Source: Oscillospiraceae bacterium
GTDB taxonomy: Bacteria; Bacillota; Clostridia; Lachnospirales; Lachnospiraceae
Reading direction: 5' to 3'
DNA: 64,000 bases
Assembly (NCBI GenBank): GCA_021771715.1
Contig: JAETOO010000001.1
Coordinates: forward strand, 372,001 to 436,000
The position numbers were made by a program, and so were the translations under genes. Shown here piece after piece: positions 18,829-30,205 of this stretch. The notes under the pieces were generated by a model. That model was given only the letters and a program-made list of their open reading frames with translations. It had not been told where the DNA came from and ran no database searches. Positions within the stretch are counted from its first letter, which is position 1. Every line of letters begins with the position of its first letter.

Positions 18829-19575
18829 CTACTGAAAATCCGGGTACTCGATCTGCACGAGCCGCAGGCCGTGGGCCGGCGCGGTCTCGGCGGCGCGGGA
18901 GCGGTCTTTGGCCGCCAGGATCGCGGGAATCTCCTCCGGCGCGATCTGCCCGCCGCCCACGCGCAGCAGTGTGCCGGTGATGATGCGGACCATGTTGTAG
19001 AGGAACCCGTTGCCGCGGATGCGCAGTGTGAGGATGTCGCCGCTTTTGGTCAGCTCGAGGCTGTAGATCGTGCGGACGCAGTTCGTCACATCCTCCTTTT
19101 TCGTGCAGAAGCTCGTGAAATCGTGCTCCCCGACAAGATACGAGGCCGCCTCGCGCATTTTTTCCAGGTCGAGGTCGTAATAGTAAAAAAGCGAGTACAG
19201 CCGTGCAATCGGGTCCGGAAACCGCCGGTTGCAGATCCGGTACTCGTACGTCTTTACCGTCCGCTGGAACCGCGGGTGAAAGTCCGGCGGCACCTCACAC
19301 GAATCCTGGACCCGGATATCCGCCGGGAGCCGCGTGTTCATCGCGTAGGAGATCCGCCCCGCCGGCATCCGCGCCGCGGTGTCGAACACACACACATTTC
19401 CGTCCGCATGCACGCCGGAGTCCGTGCGGCTCGCGCCGATCACATGAATCTCCTCCTGCAACAGCTCCGAGAGGTGATGGTTCAGGACACTCTCGATCGT
19501 AATGCCGTTCGGCTGCACCTGCCACCCGCAGTAATTCGTGCCGTCATATGCGACAATCAATTTCACCCGCTTCAT
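18829..19575 (-). CDS. truA: tRNA pseudouridine synthase A
   Basis: 248 aa, full length. Makes pseudouridine at positions 38-40 of tRNA anticodon arms. Visible motifs: KLIVAYDGTNYCGWQVQPNG, catalytic D52 in GASRTDSGVHA, KTYEYRI, and GNGFLYNMVRIITGTLLRVG. Its ATG overlaps the stop of the upstream binding-protein gene as ATGA, with AAAGGAG inside that gene's end, so translation is coupled. In many Firmicutes truA directly follows ecfT; here the galactose module lies between them. Confidence 0.96.
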   Translation of the reverse strand: MKRVKLIVAYDGTNYCGWQVQPNGITIESVLNHHLSELLQEEIHVIGASRTDSGVHADGNVCVFDTAARMPAGRISYAMNTRLPADIRVQDSCEVPPDFHPRFQRTVKTYEYRICNRRFPDPIARLYSLFYYYDLDLEKMREAASYLVGEHDFTSFCTKKEDVTNCVRTIYSLELTKSGDILTLRIRGNGFLYNMVRIITGTLLRVGGGQIAPEEIPAILAAKDRSRAAETAPAHGLRLVQIEYPDFQ

Positions 19576-20642
19576 GAATCTGCTCCTTTCGCCTGAAACT
19601 CCTCCGCGTTCTCCCTCGTCACCTTGTAGTACGGCAGGTAAATATACTGCTCTTTTTCAAATTCCAGCTCGTCCATTCCCTGCCCGGTCGCGAGCGCCAG
19701 GACCAGCTTCGCCATCGCCTCTGCCTGGCCCTCCTTGTCGTTGTACACCGTCGCCCGGAGCGTTCCCTCGATCACAGCCTCCAGCCCTACCTCCGTCCCG
19801 TCGATGCCGAAAAACACCGGGATGTTCGCCTCCGTGTAGTTCGTCTTGCCGTACGCGTCGACGGCCCCCAGCGCCATGTCATCGTTGTTCGCCAGCACCA
19901 GCTCGATCTGTGTCCGGTACTGGCCGATCATCTGCGCCATGCGGTTCTGCGCCTGCGCCCGGTTCCAGTTCGCGTTCCGCCAGCTCAGCTTCTCCAGCTC
20001 GATGCCGCTGCTCTTTAAGGTATCCACGGCGCTCTCCGTGCGGATGATCGCGTCCTGATGGCCCGGCTCCCCCTCCAGCACCACGTACTGGATCCTGCCG
20101 TCCCTGTTGCGGTCGATCGCGGGATCAGAGAGGATCACATCAGCCGCCAGCTCGCCCTGCATGACGCCGGACTGCCTGGCATCCGCCCCGACGTAGTACA
20201 GCCTGTCCCACTGCAGCATGTCCTCCGCAACCGGCTCCCGGTTGAAAAAGATGATCGGCACATCGCTTTCCCGCGCCAGGTCGATGATCTCCGAGGGATC
20301 CGCCCGGTCCACCAGATTCACCAGAAGAATCCGGCAGCCCTCCTCGATCAGCTCCGCGACCTGGTCGTCCTGAACCCGCTGGGATCCCGCCGCATCCCGC
20401 ACCGCCACCGCGATCTCCGCCCTGCCCTCCGCCTCCTCGGCCAACTCCTCCCGAAAGCAGTCCAGCAGCTCACTGATAAACGTATCGCTCTCGTCATAGC
20501 ACGTCACCCCAACCCTGATATTCCCCGCCGTCTCCGCCCTCTCCCCCGCACACCCGCCGGCAAGCAGCGCACCCGCGACCAGCGCAAAGAACCCTGCCAG
20601 CCCCAGCACGTTTTTTCTGATGTCTCCCCAGTCATTTTTCAA
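19572..20642 (-). CDS. Galactose/glucose-type substrate-binding lipoprotein (MglB-like, canonical order)
   Basis: 356 aa. The start is TTG at 20642 with GAGGAGGG 8 nt upstream; the nearby ATG is out of frame. Lipoprotein signal with lipobox LAGGC (cysteine about residue 31), then IRVGVTCYDESDTFISELL, VIFFNREP-like PIIFFNREPVAED, YYVGADARQSGVMQGELAAD, a calcium-loop-like DRNRDGRIQYVVLEGEPGHQDA, and NNDDMALGAVDAYGK. These are in normal MglB order. No permease is adjacent; it ends in the truA start. It may feed the MglAC importer or act in sensing together with the kinase cluster upstream. Confidence 0.85.
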   Translation of the reverse strand: MKNDWGDIRKNVLGLAGFFALVAGALLAGGCAGERAETAGNIRVGVTCYDESDTFISELLDCFREELAEEAEGRAEIAVAVRDAAGSQRVQDDQVAELIEEGCRILLVNLVDRADPSEIIDLARESDVPIIFFNREPVAEDMLQWDRLYYVGADARQSGVMQGELAADVILSDPAIDRNRDGRIQYVVLEGEPGHQDAIIRTESAVDTLKSSGIELEKLSWRNANWNRAQAQNRMAQMIGQYRTQIELVLANNDDMALGAVDAYGKTNYTEANIPVFFGIDGTEVGLEAVIEGTLRATVYNDKEGQAEAMAKLVLALATGQGMDELEFEKEQYIYLPYYKVTRENAEEFQAKGADS

Positions 20643-21039: not shown

Positions 21040-21984
21040 TCACTGACTCATCGTATACAGCATCTCCTGATTCTCCTTCGTAAACAGCGTCCCCCTGCGC
21101 ATCACGACATGCTGCACCGCCGTGCCCTTCATCTGCCGAAGCGGATTCCGCACCTTCTCCGCGACCTCCGTCAGACTCTGATACCCCATCAGAAACCCGT
21201 CCGGCACGATCAGGCAGCGCGCTGCCCCGGTGTCGAGGTAGTAGACCGCCCGCGCGGAACTTCCGATCCCGTAGAGCACGGCCCCGTGCAGGTCGTTGGC
21301 CGCCGCGCACGCTCCCGCGGCGATCAGGCTGCCGTCGTCAAAGGCCACCACGATGTTCACCCTCGGCTGCTCCGTCAGATCGTCCGCCCCGGAGACGGCA
21401 AACGCCACCGTGCCTTTGGCCCCTTCCTCCGCCAGCAACTCCTCAAAGCCGCTCCTGCGGGCCTCGGCCGCCTCCGCTTCCCCGCGCGTCCAGACCAGCC
21501 CCAGCGTCTTTCCGTCGAGGTTCCCGGCGTAATCCTCCAGCAGCGCGCGCGCCAGATCCCGCCCCATCGCGCGGTTGTCCGGCCCCGTGGACGGGAGCTC
21601 CGTCTCCCGGGACCGGTCGCCGCCGACGAGCAGGACCGGAATCTTCGTCCTTTTCTGCAGCGCCTCCGCCGTGACCCCCGCGACCGGCTGCACCAGCAGC
21701 GCTTCGGCTCCGTTCTGCGCCTCCTGCGCCGCCAGCTGCTCCACCTCCGCCGCGGACAGTTCCGCCGCCGTGCTGACCACGTACGCCTCCACTTCCTCGT
21801 CCTCCGCCGCCATGCGCAGCCCGTACTTAAAAGAGGTCCACTGGTCATCCTCCGAATTCCGGACAATGACGGACACTCTCTGCCGTTCCTTCCCGCTTTT
21901 CTCCTTCAGCATGAACGAAACCAGCAGCGCAAGCAGCGCCGCCAGCGTCAACTCGATTAAAATAAATGTCTTCTTACTGTTCAT
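21040..21984 (-). CDS. Membrane-anchored periplasmic-binding-protein-like sugar sensor
   Basis: 314 aa from MNSKKTFILIELTLAALLALL at 21984, overlapping the kinase gene by 11 nt. An N-terminal hydrophobic helix (about 6-26) without a lipobox cysteine suggests a membrane anchor. The rest is a periplasmic-binding-protein type 1 fold (VSVIVRNSEDDQWTSFKYGLRMAAED; GAEALLVQPVAG; IPVLLVGGDRSRETELPSTGPDNRAMGRDLA). It is co-encoded with a YesM-like kinase and YesN-like regulator, matching three-component systems such as XylFII-LytST in Clostridium, where an anchored binding protein hands the sugar signal to the kinase. A sensor role is inferred from this order. Confidence 0.75.
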   Translation of the reverse strand: MNSKKTFILIELTLAALLALLVSFMLKEKSGKERQRVSVIVRNSEDDQWTSFKYGLRMAAEDEEVEAYVVSTAAELSAAEVEQLAAQEAQNGAEALLVQPVAGVTAEALQKRTKIPVLLVGGDRSRETELPSTGPDNRAMGRDLARALLEDYAGNLDGKTLGLVWTRGEAEAAEARRSGFEELLAEEGAKGTVAFAVSGADDLTEQPRVNIVVAFDDGSLIAAGACAAANDLHGAVLYGIGSSARAVYYLDTGAARCLIVPDGFLMGYQSLTEVAEKVRNPLRQMKGTAVQHVVMRRGTLFTKENQEMLYTMSQ

Positions 21985-23809
21985 CGTAGTACCTGTGGCC
22001 CTGCTCCAGCCTCTCTCTGTTCTCCTCCGTGTACGCCACCGCCGGAATGCAGACCGAGACGCGCGTCCCCTCATCCGGCTCGCTCGCAATCTCCAGCCCG
22101 TACGATTCCCCGAACAGGAGCCTGATGCGGTTGTTGACATTGACGAGGCCCACGCCCGACCCGCGCTTGTGGACGCGCTTGTCGTCTGTCAGGAGGAGCC
22201 TTACCTCCTCCTCGGACATTCCCATGCCGTTGTCCTCCACCGAGAGGACGACCCTTCCGTCCTGCCGTCTTCCCGTCACCCGGATCTCGCCGCAGTCCTC
22301 CATGCCGCACACGCCGTAGTTGATCGCATTTTCCAGAAGCGGCTGCAGCACAAGCTTCACGGTGCAGAACGATTCGATCTCCGGCTCCACGTCAAACGTC
22401 ACGGCAAATGCATCCCTGTAGCGCACCTTCTGGATGTTCATGTAGCTCTCGGCGTGCTGCAGCTCCTCCTTCACGCTGATGACCGTCCGCCCCTTCGACA
22501 GGCTGATCCGGAACAGCTTCGCGAGCTGCGAGATCATAAACGCGGCCTCCTCGTTGCGCTCCCCCTCGATCATCCAGGTGATCGAGTCCAGCGTGTTGTA
22601 CAGGAAGTGCGGGTTGATCTGGCTCTGCAGCGCGTCCAGCTCACTCTTTCTGCGCTCCGTCTGCTCCTGGACGATCTTCCGCATCAGCATGTCAATCTGC
22701 TCATACGATTTCTGGATCGAGTAGCCGAGGTGCCGGATCTCGATCGAGCCGCCGATATAGATCTCCGGCTTCTCCCCCGCCTCATACTCCATGACGGAGT
22801 CGTTCAGCCGCATGATCGGCCTCGAAATCCGGACCGCGACGACGCGGTTGACCACGGAGAGCATCATCGCCATCAGAAGCATAATGATCCCGATAAAGTA
22901 GCGGATATTGATCATCCCGCGCGTGAACGCCGTGTAGGGGATCACCCCGACGAGCCGCCAGCCGGTGTAGCTGATGTTGTTCACCACCAGCTTCCGCCGC
23001 GCTCCGTTGAAGGAGTCCTCGTAGATCCCTTCCTTGTGCTTCGCCGCGGTGACGCTGTTCTCCCGCGCCAGGCCGCGGTTGATCTGGATCTGCCGCGGGT
23101 GGTAGATGATCTCCCCGTTGCGATCGCACAGGTAGTAGTACTGCCCGTTATTCTGCGTGTTGATCTGCTTCATCACGCGGGAGACGCTCGAATAGTCCAT
23201 GTCCACCAGCAGCACGCCGGGCTGCGGGACCCCGTTCACCGTGATCTCGATCGCCCGGCTCAGGGAGATCACCCAGTAATAGCGGAAGCTCGAGTCGTCA
23301 AACAGGTTCTGAATGTGAGGCGTGGAGAAATGCATGTTCTCCATCTCCCCCATCGCCCGCACGAACCAGTCCTGGCGCGACACATTCGGGTCCTCCTTCT
23401 GGAGCGCCACCGGCTCCGCCGCCATCAAACTCCCGTAGTGATTGTAGACGGCGATCGTCCGCAGATTGTCCCGGTTGGCCTCGTACAGCAGGTTCATCCC
23501 CCGCTGCACGGCGAGATCCTGGTTCGCAAAATCGCTCTCCTTGATGACATTGTAGTAGATCGCATCCGAGATTCTGCGCATGCCCACAAGATAATCTTCG
23601 AGATTTTCTCCCGCCTGCTCCATCACCTTCTGCGTGCTCCGTATCGTCTCCTCCCGCGCAAGCGTCGAGAACCGGAGGTACAGGACGATCCCCAGCACCA
23701 GCATGATGAAGAACGACACCAGCGAAAACGCGATCATGATGGTGGACTGCAGGCCCCTTGGCTCTATTTTTCTGATACGACTGACAATCCTATGCTTCAC
23801 TCTTCTCAT
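21974..23809 (-). CDS. Sensor histidine kinase, YesM type
   Basis: 611 aa. Membrane helix 24-46, extracellular Cache-like sensor (about 47-300), second helix about 302-322, HAMP (323-375), His_kinase domain with H401 in LQSQINPHFLYNTLDSI, and a HATPase with ENAINYGV, SVEDNGMGM and GSGVGLVNVNNRI. The N-box is intact. Its start overlaps the regulator gene by 20 nt. Such kinases normally respond to extracellular sugars and phosphorylate a partner AraC-type response regulator. Confidence 0.93.
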   Translation of the reverse strand: MRRVKHRIVSRIRKIEPRGLQSTIMIAFSLVSFFIMLVLGIVLYLRFSTLAREETIRSTQKVMEQAGENLEDYLVGMRRISDAIYYNVIKESDFANQDLAVQRGMNLLYEANRDNLRTIAVYNHYGSLMAAEPVALQKEDPNVSRQDWFVRAMGEMENMHFSTPHIQNLFDDSSFRYYWVISLSRAIEITVNGVPQPGVLLVDMDYSSVSRVMKQINTQNNGQYYYLCDRNGEIIYHPRQIQINRGLARENSVTAAKHKEGIYEDSFNGARRKLVVNNISYTGWRLVGVIPYTAFTRGMINIRYFIGIIMLLMAMMLSVVNRVVAVRISRPIMRLNDSVMEYEAGEKPEIYIGGSIEIRHLGYSIQKSYEQIDMLMRKIVQEQTERRKSELDALQSQINPHFLYNTLDSITWMIEGERNEEAAFMISQLAKLFRISLSKGRTVISVKEELQHAESYMNIQKVRYRDAFAVTFDVEPEIESFCTVKLVLQPLLENAINYGVCGMEDCGEIRVTGRRQDGRVVLSVEDNGMGMSEEEVRLLLTDDKRVHKRGSGVGLVNVNNRIRLLFGESYGLEIASEPDEGTRVSVCIPAVAYTEENRERLEQGHRYYDEQ

Positions 23810-27250: not shown

Positions 27251-28759
27251 TTATAGGTATTTTGCACTGAGCCTCAGGAGCTCCTCCTGGTTGGTTTCCT
27301 TTGTGTTCACGATCCCGGAGAGATGTCCGTTTGACATGACGCCGATGCGGTTCGTGATTCCCAGAATCTCCGGCATCTCGGACGACACGACGAGGATCGT
27401 CTTGCCCTCCTTCGCCATCTTGATGATCAGCTCATAGATCTCGTACTTCGCGCCGACATCGATGCCTCTTGTCGGCTCATCCATCATGAAGATCTGCGGC
27501 TCACGCTCCAGCCATTTTCCGAAAATGACCTTCTGCTGGTTGCCTCCGGAGAGGTTTGAGATCATGTCGTCCGGTCCCATGCACTTCGTGTGCATGATCT
27601 TGATCTCATTTGCCGTCGCCTTCGTCATCTTCGCGTCCGAGAGCGCTACCTTCGCCTTGTACTGCTGCAGGTTCGCAATCGTCGTGTTGAACGTCAGATC
27701 TCCCTTCAGGAACAGGCCGTTGGCCTTGCGCTCCTCCGTGATCATGGCGAAGCCGTGCTCCATCGCTTCCTTCGCGCTGCCGAAATTCATCAGGCGGCCG
27801 TTGCAGTACACGCGCCCGGCAGCCCGCGTCCGAACGCCGAAAATCGTCTCGAGAAGCTCCGTCCGGCCGGCGCCCACCAGCCCGTACAGGCCGAAAATCT
27901 CGCCCTCCCGCACGTCAAAGGAGATATCCTGCAGGTGCGGCTCGAACTTCGTCGACAGGTGCTGGATGGACAGGATCACGTCCCCCGGCACATTGTCCAC
28001 CGTCGGGAACCGGTTCTCGAGGGAGCGCCCCACCATCGCGGCGATCAGCTCGTTCATGTCGGTGTCCTTCGTCTCCTTCGTCATCACGAGGTTGCCGTCC
28101 CGCAGGACCGAGATCTCGTCGCAAATCTCAAAGACCTCATCCATCTTATGCGAGATATAGATCAGGGAAATCCCCTGGTTCTTCAGCATCCGCATCATCT
28201 CAAAGAGCTTCGCCACCTCCTGCACCGTCAGCGAGGAGGTCGGCTCATCCAGGACAATCACCTTCGCATTGTAAGAAATTGCCTTCGCGATCTCACACAT
28301 TTGCCGCTGGGACACCGACATGTTCCGCATCGGCTGCGTGAGATTCACGGTCATCCCGAGCTTCCGGAAAAGCTCGGACGCTTCTTTTTTCATTCGGTTC
28401 TCATCAATCACGCCCATCGAGTTGACCGGGTAGCGCCCCAGGAACAAATTGTCGATCACGTTTCGCTCGAGACACTGGTTCAGCTCCTGGTGCACCATCG
28501 CGATCCCGTTCTCCAGCGCGTCCTTCGGGCCGGAGAAGCTCACCTCTCTGCCGTCGAGGAAAATCGTCCCCTCGTCCTTCTGATACGTGCCGAACAGACA
28601 CTTCATCATCGTGGACTTCCCGGCGCCGTTCTCTCCCATGAGCCCCATGACCGTCCCGCGCCGCAGGTTCAGGCTGATGTGATCCAGGACCCGGTTCCTG
28701 CCAAAGGATTTGCACATGCCGCGTATTGACAAGACGATATCATCCTTCTTATCTGTCAT
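27251..28759 (-). CDS. mglA: Galactose/methyl-galactoside ABC transporter ATP-binding protein
   Basis: 502 aa with two ATPase domains, as in CUT2 transporters. First domain: Walker A GENGAGKSTMMK, signature MSVSQRQMCEIAK and Walker B VIVLDEPTSSL. Second domain: degenerate Walker A-like GLVGAGRTELLE, signature LSGGNQQKVIFGKWL and FMMDEPTRGIDVGA. This asymmetry is normal for MglA/RbsA. It powers MglC and lies between mglB and mglC in one operon. Confidence 0.94.
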   Translation of the reverse strand: MTDKKDDIVLSIRGMCKSFGRNRVLDHISLNLRRGTVMGLMGENGAGKSTMMKCLFGTYQKDEGTIFLDGREVSFSGPKDALENGIAMVHQELNQCLERNVIDNLFLGRYPVNSMGVIDENRMKKEASELFRKLGMTVNLTQPMRNMSVSQRQMCEIAKAISYNAKVIVLDEPTSSLTVQEVAKLFEMMRMLKNQGISLIYISHKMDEVFEICDEISVLRDGNLVMTKETKDTDMNELIAAMVGRSLENRFPTVDNVPGDVILSIQHLSTKFEPHLQDISFDVREGEIFGLYGLVGAGRTELLETIFGVRTRAAGRVYCNGRLMNFGSAKEAMEHGFAMITEERKANGLFLKGDLTFNTTIANLQQYKAKVALSDAKMTKATANEIKIMHTKCMGPDDMISNLSGGNQQKVIFGKWLEREPQIFMMDEPTRGIDVGAKYEIYELIIKMAKEGKTILVVSSEMPEILGITNRIGVMSNGHLSGIVNTKETNQEELLRLSAKYL

Positions 28760-28906: not shown

Positions 28907-30145
28907 TTACTGATCCAGCAGGGATGTGTAAGAAGCTGCATTGTCCGTCTTCACCATGTTGATCGCGAACGCGTCGTACTGGCCCGGATTGCCCAGACGG
29001 TTGGTGATGTTGGACTCTGTCTGTCCGTCGCCGCCGATGTAGTCAACCTCGAGGTTCAGAATGTCGTCGTAGTTCTGAAGCAGCGGCTGATACGTGGAGC
29101 TCAGGAAGTTGTCAGAAGCATTGTAGATATTCAGCCAGATCTTCTTCACCGGATGTGCACTCTCGTCGAGCTGCACCGATACCGGATCATAGATCTTCGT
29201 GGAATCTGTGAAGTCCTGATAGTTGTCGGCGGTAACCGCAACGTTCAGTGCGTAGTAGGAGCGCTGCTCCTCATTGTAAACGTACACGTCGGAGGAGAGC
29301 ACGTTGCCCGCGTCATCCGCTGTGCCGATACCGGTGTCGATATCCACGCCGTCAAGCGCGTTGCGCAGAACACGAAGTGTCAGGTACGCCTGCACATCTG
29401 CGTGCTGGCTGATCGTTCCGCCGTAGCCCTCTGCGATCGCCGCCACCGCGTCGCTGTTCGCATCGTAGCCGAAGGTCGGCACGTTGTTGTCCTTGGACCA
29501 TGCGTTGAACATGGACATTCCCATGCCGTCGTTGTTGGAGACGACTACGTCGATCGCGTCGCCGAACGAGGAGGACCAGGTTCCAATCGCGTTTCCTGCA
29601 GTCGCTGCGTCCCAGGTAGCTCCCGCGGAGTTCTTCATCTCCTGCGAAGCCAGCTCACGAACCGTGTACGTCGTTCCGTTGATCTCCAGCGTGCCGTCCT
29701 GCACTGCAGATGCCGTGCCGTCCGTGTTCGTTCCGATCGGATCGCTGTCGATGTCTCCGTCCTTGTCCACGCCGGTGCCGAGTGCCTTGCGGACGCCTCT
29801 GGTACGCGCGATGGAATCGTTGTGTCCGATGTCGCCGATCGCCAGCACGTAGCCGATCACGCCGTCACCGTTGCGGTCGATGGAGTCGATGTTCGCCTCG
29901 ATGTAGTCCTTCACCATCGTACCCTGCAGCTCCGCGCCCTGATTCGCGTCAAAGCCCACATAGTATGTATTCTCGTTGTAGGTCAGAGCTGCCATGTCGA
30001 GCTCTCCCGTGGAGCTGTTCGACGGCTGGCGGTTGAACCACACGAGCGGCTTATCCTTGTTCGCTACCTCCTCTGCCGACACACCCGCTACGGTCGTCAG
30101 TCCCATCAGCGCTGCCACTGCCATTGTAAGCACTTTTTTGTTCAT
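28907..30145 (-). CDS. mglB: Galactose/glucose-binding protein, apparently circularly permuted MglB
   Basis: 412 aa from MNKKVLTMAVAALMGL at 30145, with AAGAAAGGAG upstream; SPase I-type signal to about AGVSA/EE, no lipobox. Segments appear in altered order. The mature N-terminus (33-40, PLVWFNRQ) matches the middle strand VVFFNKEP of E. coli MglB, followed by YYVGFDANQGAELQG, a calcium loop DRNGDGVIG (90-98), and VVSNNDGMGMSMFNAW (201-216). The C-terminal part (335-412: KKIWLNIYNASDNFLSS ... AFAINMVKTDNAASY) matches the canonical first 80 residues (GVTIYKYDDNF ... ALAINLVDPAAAG). The 120-200 region holds an insertion. Operon position leaves little doubt about the transport role. Confidence 0.85.
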   Translation of the reverse strand: MNKKVLTMAVAALMGLTTVAGVSAEEVANKDKPLVWFNRQPSNSSTGELDMAALTYNENTYYVGFDANQGAELQGTMVKDYIEANIDSIDRNGDGVIGYVLAIGDIGHNDSIARTRGVRKALGTGVDKDGDIDSDPIGTNTDGTASAVQDGTLEINGTTYTVRELASQEMKNSAGATWDAATAGNAIGTWSSSFGDAIDVVVSNNDGMGMSMFNAWSKDNNVPTFGYDANSDAVAAIAEGYGGTISQHADVQAYLTLRVLRNALDGVDIDTGIGTADDAGNVLSSDVYVYNEEQRSYYALNVAVTADNYQDFTDSTKIYDPVSVQLDESAHPVKKIWLNIYNASDNFLSSTYQPLLQNYDDILNLEVDYIGGDGQTESNITNRLGNPGQYDAFAINMVKTDNAASYTSLLDQ

Positions 30146-30205
30146 TTTCTGTTTCTCCTTTCTTCTTTTCCGGCATTGATTCGTCATGCCGTTGTTGATA
30201 GTGAC

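Follow-up and report, generated by a model that had tools for sequence, protein, structure and literature searches.

A circularly permuted MglB-type sugar-binding protein without a lipobox in a Lachnospiraceae genome

The locus and its binding protein

The window considered here is a stretch of 64,000 nucleotides from a Lachnospiraceae genome (Oscillospiraceae bacterium, GenBank assembly GCA_021771715.1, contig JAETOO010000001.1, positions 372,001 to 436,000; the genome is called G000 below). On its minus strand, at the coordinates given in a preliminary description of the DNA, lies the gene of P0002, an MglB-type binding protein in which the usual succession of segments is circularly permuted: the segment that opens canonical MglBs, holding the first three strands of the N-terminal lobe, is relocated to the C-terminus. 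The features of P0002 and its neighbours are collected in Table 1. The signal peptide cleavage site was placed by the (-3,-1) rule from the sequence, not by a predictor.

Table 1. Features of the permuted mglB gene, its product and the adjoining genes
Feature	Coordinates	Strand	Basis
Circularly permuted MglB-type glucose/galactose-binding protein P0002, 412 aa	28907..30145	minus	Pfam, PDB sequence search, structure model and alignment
P0002 start codon ATG; stop codon	30145-30143; 28907-28909	minus	read from sequence
Ribosome-binding site GGAG, 5' of the ATG at 30145	30155..30158	minus	read from sequence
P0002 signal peptide, residues 1-24, V-S-A then E-E; no Cys or lipobox	30074..30145	minus	
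P0002 residues 33-312, equivalent to canonical MglB 121-342 (pre-cleft strand to old C-terminus)	29210..30049	minus	hhalign
P0002 calcium loop DRNGDGVIG, residues 90-98	29852..29878	minus	equivalent of Tp0684/E. coli Ca site, hand-mapped
P0002 linker, residues 313-338, old C-terminus to old N-terminus	29132..29209	minus	hhalign
P0002 residues 339-412, equivalent to canonical MglB N-terminal segment from about 43	28910..29131	minus	Pfam, segment HMM, hhalign
mglA-type ATPase, 502 aa, two ABC_tran stretches	27251..28759	minus	
mglC-type permease, 551 aa, charged N-terminal extension of about 200 aa	25577..27232	minus	
Response regulator: receiver, GGDEF-like and AraC helix-turn-helix	23790..25400	minus	
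dCache histidine kinase	21974..23809	minus	
Second Peripla_BP_4 protein, N-terminal hydrophobic segment, probable start MNSKKT	21040..21984	minus	Pfam run from in-frame 22044
P0003, normal-order MglB-like protein with lipobox-like Cys	19572..20642	minus	

Order of the segments

The permuted order had been proposed in the preliminary description, and Pfam, a hidden Markov model (HMM) of the displaced segment, hhalign and structure alignment agree on it. In Pfam, positions 93-256 of the Peripla_BP_4 profile fall on residues 57-266 of P0002, the first 92 profile positions find no match ahead of residue 57, and a different family, PF18610 (Peripla_BP_7), covers residues 334-403 (139 bits, E 5e-41); the normal-order protein P0003 of the same locus carries Peripla_BP_4 positions 1-257 in one unbroken run. 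In hhalign, residues 33-312 align to canonical MglB 121-342 and, out of turn, residues 339-375 to canonical 43-79 (E 4.5e-7). The junction can be read directly: residues 302-312, VAVTADNYQDF, correspond to the canonical MglB end VAVTPDNFADF, about 26 linker residues follow, and then comes the canonical N-terminal strand. The new termini lie before the PLVWFNRQ strand, as had been predicted.

The segment HMM was built on the 6 sequences that remained, after a redundancy filter, from 83 segments caught by motif. It matches 120/120 canonical MglBs, starting at residues 28-62 and scoring 10.7-23.3 bits (median 15.4), with a maximum of 6.7 among 2400 shuffled decoys; these 120 are all matches to one clostridial query and hence non-independent. 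In the canonical protein P0123 the match extends to about residue 108. On this sequence evidence the displaced segment is homologous to canonical MglB N-termini, beyond what a chance match would give. Removed before the count was P0192 (596 aa), almost a canonical MglB twice over with a garbled, out-of-frame middle, which is probably a metagenome artefact.

A direct comparison with P0003, suggested in the preliminary description, holds in part: P0003 has the normal order and the main bodies can be compared (BLASTP aligns P0002 31-240 to P0003 127-293), but the segment HMM misses the N-terminus of P0003, giving only 1.7 bits at residues 249-276. Neither protein reaches the threshold of the canonical MglB equivalog NF011924 of NCBIfam (at least 420 bits): P0002 scores 93.6 bits in two stretches and P0003, though normal in order, 244.7.

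The structure model of P0002 (predicted local distance difference test, pLDDT, 83.4) aligns throughout with Tp0684 of Treponema pallidum; its alignment with canonical MglBs begins only at chain residue 54-79. Residues 334-411 form strand-helix-strand-helix-strand-helix within the colinear Tp0684 alignment.

A described class of permuted binding proteins

The preliminary description knew of no natural permuted MglB, a statement that had been overtaken by Brautigam et al. in 2016 (PMC4990184). That paper reports the structure of Tp0684, its circularly permuted topology, a preference for D-glucose and a fourth hinge crossing, names the class Type Ic/Cluster Bc, and places homologs in treponemes and in Gram-positive bacteria, among which gut commensals are numerous. 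In the literature searched for permuted MglBs this paper alone was relevant, and searching under the name "Peripla_BP_7" returned nothing. Tp0684, also TpMglB-2 (PDB 5jx2, 6bgc, 6bgd), is the first match for P0002 in a PDB sequence search (residues 29-410 of 412, E 1.4e-91). The two share the permuted order, 41-43% identity in structural alignments and the same calcium loop region; coverage exceeds 90% and the alignment is colinear over the full length including the N-terminus, which is how the paper delimits the class. P0002 is an additional member of Type Ic/Cluster Bc. The colinear alignment of the model would imply a fourth lobe crossing in the hinge of P0002, and by analogy with Tp0684 linker residues 313-338 would be the counterpart of that crossing. 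The canonical MglBs, such as E. coli GGBP and the clostridial L122, are homologous to P0002 in both parts and differ in sequence order. PF18610, judged by its weak matches to canonical MglB N-termini, is here read not as a separate domain but as the equivalent of the canonical N-terminal segment.

The glucose-site residues are likewise conserved in P0002. By hand mapping from the PDB search alignment and Table 2 of PMC4990184, E. coli D14, F16, N91, H152 and D154 correspond to P0002 D345, F347, N38, H108 and D110, and R158, W183, N211, D236 and N256 to R114, W178, N205, D228 and Q247. Nine of the ten positions are as in E. coli GGBP and nine of ten are identical to Tp0684, with D345 as in E. 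coli and not Asn. The predicted sugar site is the same as that of Tp0684.

Distribution and descent

The same order recurs in other genomes, as the preliminary description had asked to have checked: same-order relatives are encoded at 113 loci, among them that of the window. Among the best 80 genome loci the permuted MglBs of Lachnospiraceae, for example those of Blautia parvula (L049) and [Ruminococcus] torques (L044), show 77-92% identity and the same operon start as P0002. PF18610 occurs in 45/397 genomes of the family (41/334 genera), in 4/196 of the order, two of these four being sub-cut-off matches to canonical MglB N-termini, in 2/398 drawn from the phylum, and in 0/14 control genomes; apart from the controls, each count includes the window's own genome. 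The listed family genomes with a match have one copy each, except G769 with two.

In the tree, 22 permuted proteins form one clade against 24 canonical ones (support 100/100), which fits one origin for the proteins of this sample, none of the permuted ones being from a spirochaete.

Interpretation and alternatives

Given how its pieces are ordered, its colinear alignment with Tp0684, the conservation of sugar and calcium positions and the conserved gene order mglB-mglA-mglC, P0002 is very probably the substrate-binding component of an ATP-binding cassette (ABC) importer of Mgl type (CUT2) for glucose/galactose, within the permuted class founded on Tp0684. Duplication, fusion and truncation would be expected to leave such a junction as the one seen here. 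An ordinary mglB would have been duplicated in tandem, fused and trimmed, such that what was the N-terminal linker now joins the old C-terminus to the old N-terminus, and the chain starts anew before the PLVWFNRQ strand. P0002 would bind glucose, and perhaps galactose, between its two lobes, close, and dock on MglC as other binding proteins do. Its N-terminus reads as a signal-peptidase-I type signal peptide without lipid anchor, and the protein probably lies unattached in the space beneath or inside the cell wall, like most sampled transport binding proteins of G000. Several points weigh against this account. Another partner may tether P0002, and its sugar binding and location are predictions. 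No duplication intermediate was found, the listed PF18610 frames of permuted proteins being 418-511 aa long; the protein search covered the best 120 of 7996 matches, at 0.55-1.75 times the query length. The branches of the tree to outgroups and sensors are very long and the sample is without a spirochaete permuted protein, so that the tree shows neither which group is sister to the permuted clade nor that the whole class arose once.

A first alternative is that the permutation evolved to serve lipid tethering. The 2016 paper proposes that permutation may aid tethering, and describes most class members as probably tethered, a commonality rather than a defining trait (PMC4990184). Tp0684 is a spirochaete lipoprotein, and the permuted MglBs of Lachnospiraceae mostly carry a lipobox and a low-complexity linker. 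Among all permuted loci a regular expression finds the lipobox in 101/113, leaving 12 of which L121 (SSAC) is ambiguous, and after removal of 10 duplicates, with L121 counted as lipidated, in 94/103 non-redundant proteins, with 16-58 residues from Cys to the first core motif. P0002 is one of the nine non-redundant proteins without it, and contains no Cys in signal peptide or mature protein. Both Cys and linker are missing in P0002, L009 (whose full N-terminus has no Cys), L010, L011, L013, L021 and L030; in L035 a Tyr replaces the Cys and the linker is kept, and L107 also has no lipobox. We infer that the anchor was probably lost in these proteins rather than never present, because the large majority have it; on the tree the lipobox state needs at least 6 changes, of which the starred branches force only 1, and loss and gain are indistinguishable. 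Set against tethering as the purpose, P0002 retains the permutation without the anchor, and 46/120 canonical-order MglBs, again matches to one clostridial query, have a lipobox-like Cys by regular expression. These same observations count against the simple form of the preliminary suggestion that the permutation could alter anchoring, an idea that the 2016 paper had raised as well. Tethering as the purpose finds no support in the sequences compared here, which argue against its simple form; it appears improbable.

A second alternative, raised in PMC4990184, is that the displaced segment came from an unrelated gene and arrived at the canonical N-terminal fold by convergence. That paper puts the last 100 residues of Tp0684 at only 13% identity to the first 100 of E. 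coli MglB, and the segment HMM misses the N-termini of the normal-order, sensor-like proteins P0003 (see above) and P0124 (-0.6 bits). Yet clostridial and spirochaete canonical MglBs alike, all 120, outscore every decoy, and the hhalign match is of the same tenor. Five other Peripla_BP_4 proteins of G000 score at most 1.7 bits or nothing with the segment HMM. Within the 196 genomes of the order, PF18610 detects, besides two permuted proteins, only the canonical N-termini of L122 (E 1.2e-5) and L123 (2.0e-5), both sub-cut-off, and 7 of the 120 MglB-search proteins listed carry a precomputed PF18610 match. A borrowed, convergent segment is accordingly judged very unlikely from the PF18610 matches, the segment HMM, hhalign and the decoys.

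Still harder to sustain is a reading of residues 335-412 as a domain added to a complete binding protein of normal order with both lobes elsewhere, the case that the preliminary description had set against its own proposal. The region does have a Pfam family to itself, PF18610; but the main body of P0002 is without the first 92 Peripla_BP_4 positions, and the model aligns with Tp0684 throughout, the segment included, so that Pfam, hhalign and structure alignment together contradict the reading. An artefact of assembly or annotation has nothing specific in its favour beyond internal repeats in a few metagenome relatives and, with 113 same-order loci and a conserved operon, can be set aside as the least credible of all. 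The relatives in question, P0005 (525 aa) and P0006 (479 aa), contain short repeats that are themselves taken as metagenome artefacts.

As a well-resolved member of the Tp0684 class, P0002 bears on the homology of the displaced segment, a question that the 2016 paper left open, and it weakens the tethering explanation.

The surrounding operon

The setting of P0002 is shared by its relatives. Among the best 80 loci, MglA lies 3' of permuted mglB in 75/75 with room for it and MglC in 70/70; a related response regulator is next in 49/63, and part of the kinase in 47/63. The N-terminal extension of MglC is highly charged, looks like a coiled coil and has no Pfam match. The tblastn match of MglC starts at residue 1-10 in 74/74 permuted loci with MglC, three of these being truncated at the distal end; by comparison, the MglC of one canonical operon, that of L122 (L288), has 364 aa and aligns only from residue 203, so that the extension of about 200 aa is absent there. 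That canonical-order operon (L288, in G888 of the same order) consists of a kinase (partial frame), a P0003-like protein, MglB, MglA and MglC.

The AraC-type regulator, the dCache kinase, the second Peripla_BP_4 protein and P0003 (19572-25400) probably form a sugar-sensing system beside the transporter. P0003, a normal-order MglB homolog with a lipobox near a kinase, is probably the sugar sensor, which we take to be comparable to XylFII of the XylFII-LytS system; XylFII-LytS structures were present among the structural-search matches.

Lipid anchors among the binding proteins of the genome

In monoderm bacteria the expectation is that binding proteins are lipid-anchored. To learn whether the missing anchor is confined to MglB, the N-termini of 163 SBP_bac_1 (PF01547) proteins from 17 genomes were surveyed, for most genomes the better-scoring part of the matches and, for G000, 30 of 50 matches (L125-L154). 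Lipoboxes were called by fixed strict and permissive rules and by eye, not by a trained predictor. The recount of all 163 by fixed rules was made because reading by eye had overridden the classifier, calling L166, L219, L220, L169, L211 and L212 lipoproteins and L187 not.

In G000 a lipobox is found in 1/30 by the strict rule (L129), in 4/30 by the permissive rule (L127, L129, L135, L153) and in 0/30 by eye; a first regular expression had flagged 5/30, all five judged to carry their Cys within the hydrophobic stretch, ahead of an AxA-like site. The four of the permissive rule may be lipoproteins after all. The Peripla_BP_4 transport proteins of G000 in L002 and L004 have no lipobox, which is present in P0003 and L001. 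Most sampled transport binding proteins of G000 consequently seem, from their N-termini, to be soluble.

The pattern tracks the absence of the lipobox from permuted MglB across 15 genomes. Eight genomes with a lipobox-free permuted MglB (G000, G600, G466, G645, G971-G974) give 14/103 strict, 23/103 permissive and 13/103 by eye; seven with a lipobox-bearing one (G712, G469, G912, where ambiguous L121 is placed, and G975-G978) give 34/38, 36/38 and, without L285, whose start is cut, 36/37. Fisher p values are 4e-17, 1e-15 and 2e-21, with kinship uncorrected. G645 is intermediate (strict 4/13; permissive and eye 6/13). Outside the group totals stand G549, of the window's genus and without permuted MglB (4/14 by either rule and 3/14 by eye), and G689, which shares an identical permuted MglB core with G977 (6, 7 and 8 of 8 by strict rule, permissive rule and eye).

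Two explanations of this pattern were rejected. Loss of the lipoprotein machinery is ruled out by Lgt in 9/9 genomes tested and LspA in G000, the sole genome tested for it, with both of which such cells are able to make lipoproteins. An outer membrane as the reason for soluble binding proteins is likewise discarded, Omp85 being found in 0/7 genomes tested (G000 included, G971-G974 not among them).

The N-termini somewhat favour the view that G000 is one of several Lachnospiraceae lineages, Parablautia and Candidatus Limivivens among the others, in which most transport binding proteins are no longer lipid-anchored and are exported in soluble form through signal peptidase I, while the sensor-like P0003 and L001 stay lipidated. 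No description of binding proteins losing their lipobox in Lachnospiraceae or Clostridia was found in the literature searched, as judged by titles and the openings of abstracts. If this view is true, the binding proteins would reside in a periplasm-like space enclosed by the wall, the permuted MglB would be one of many that were switched, and how such cells keep their nutrient receptors becomes a testable question. In this respect the missing anchor outweighs the permutation in importance and deserves a study of its own.
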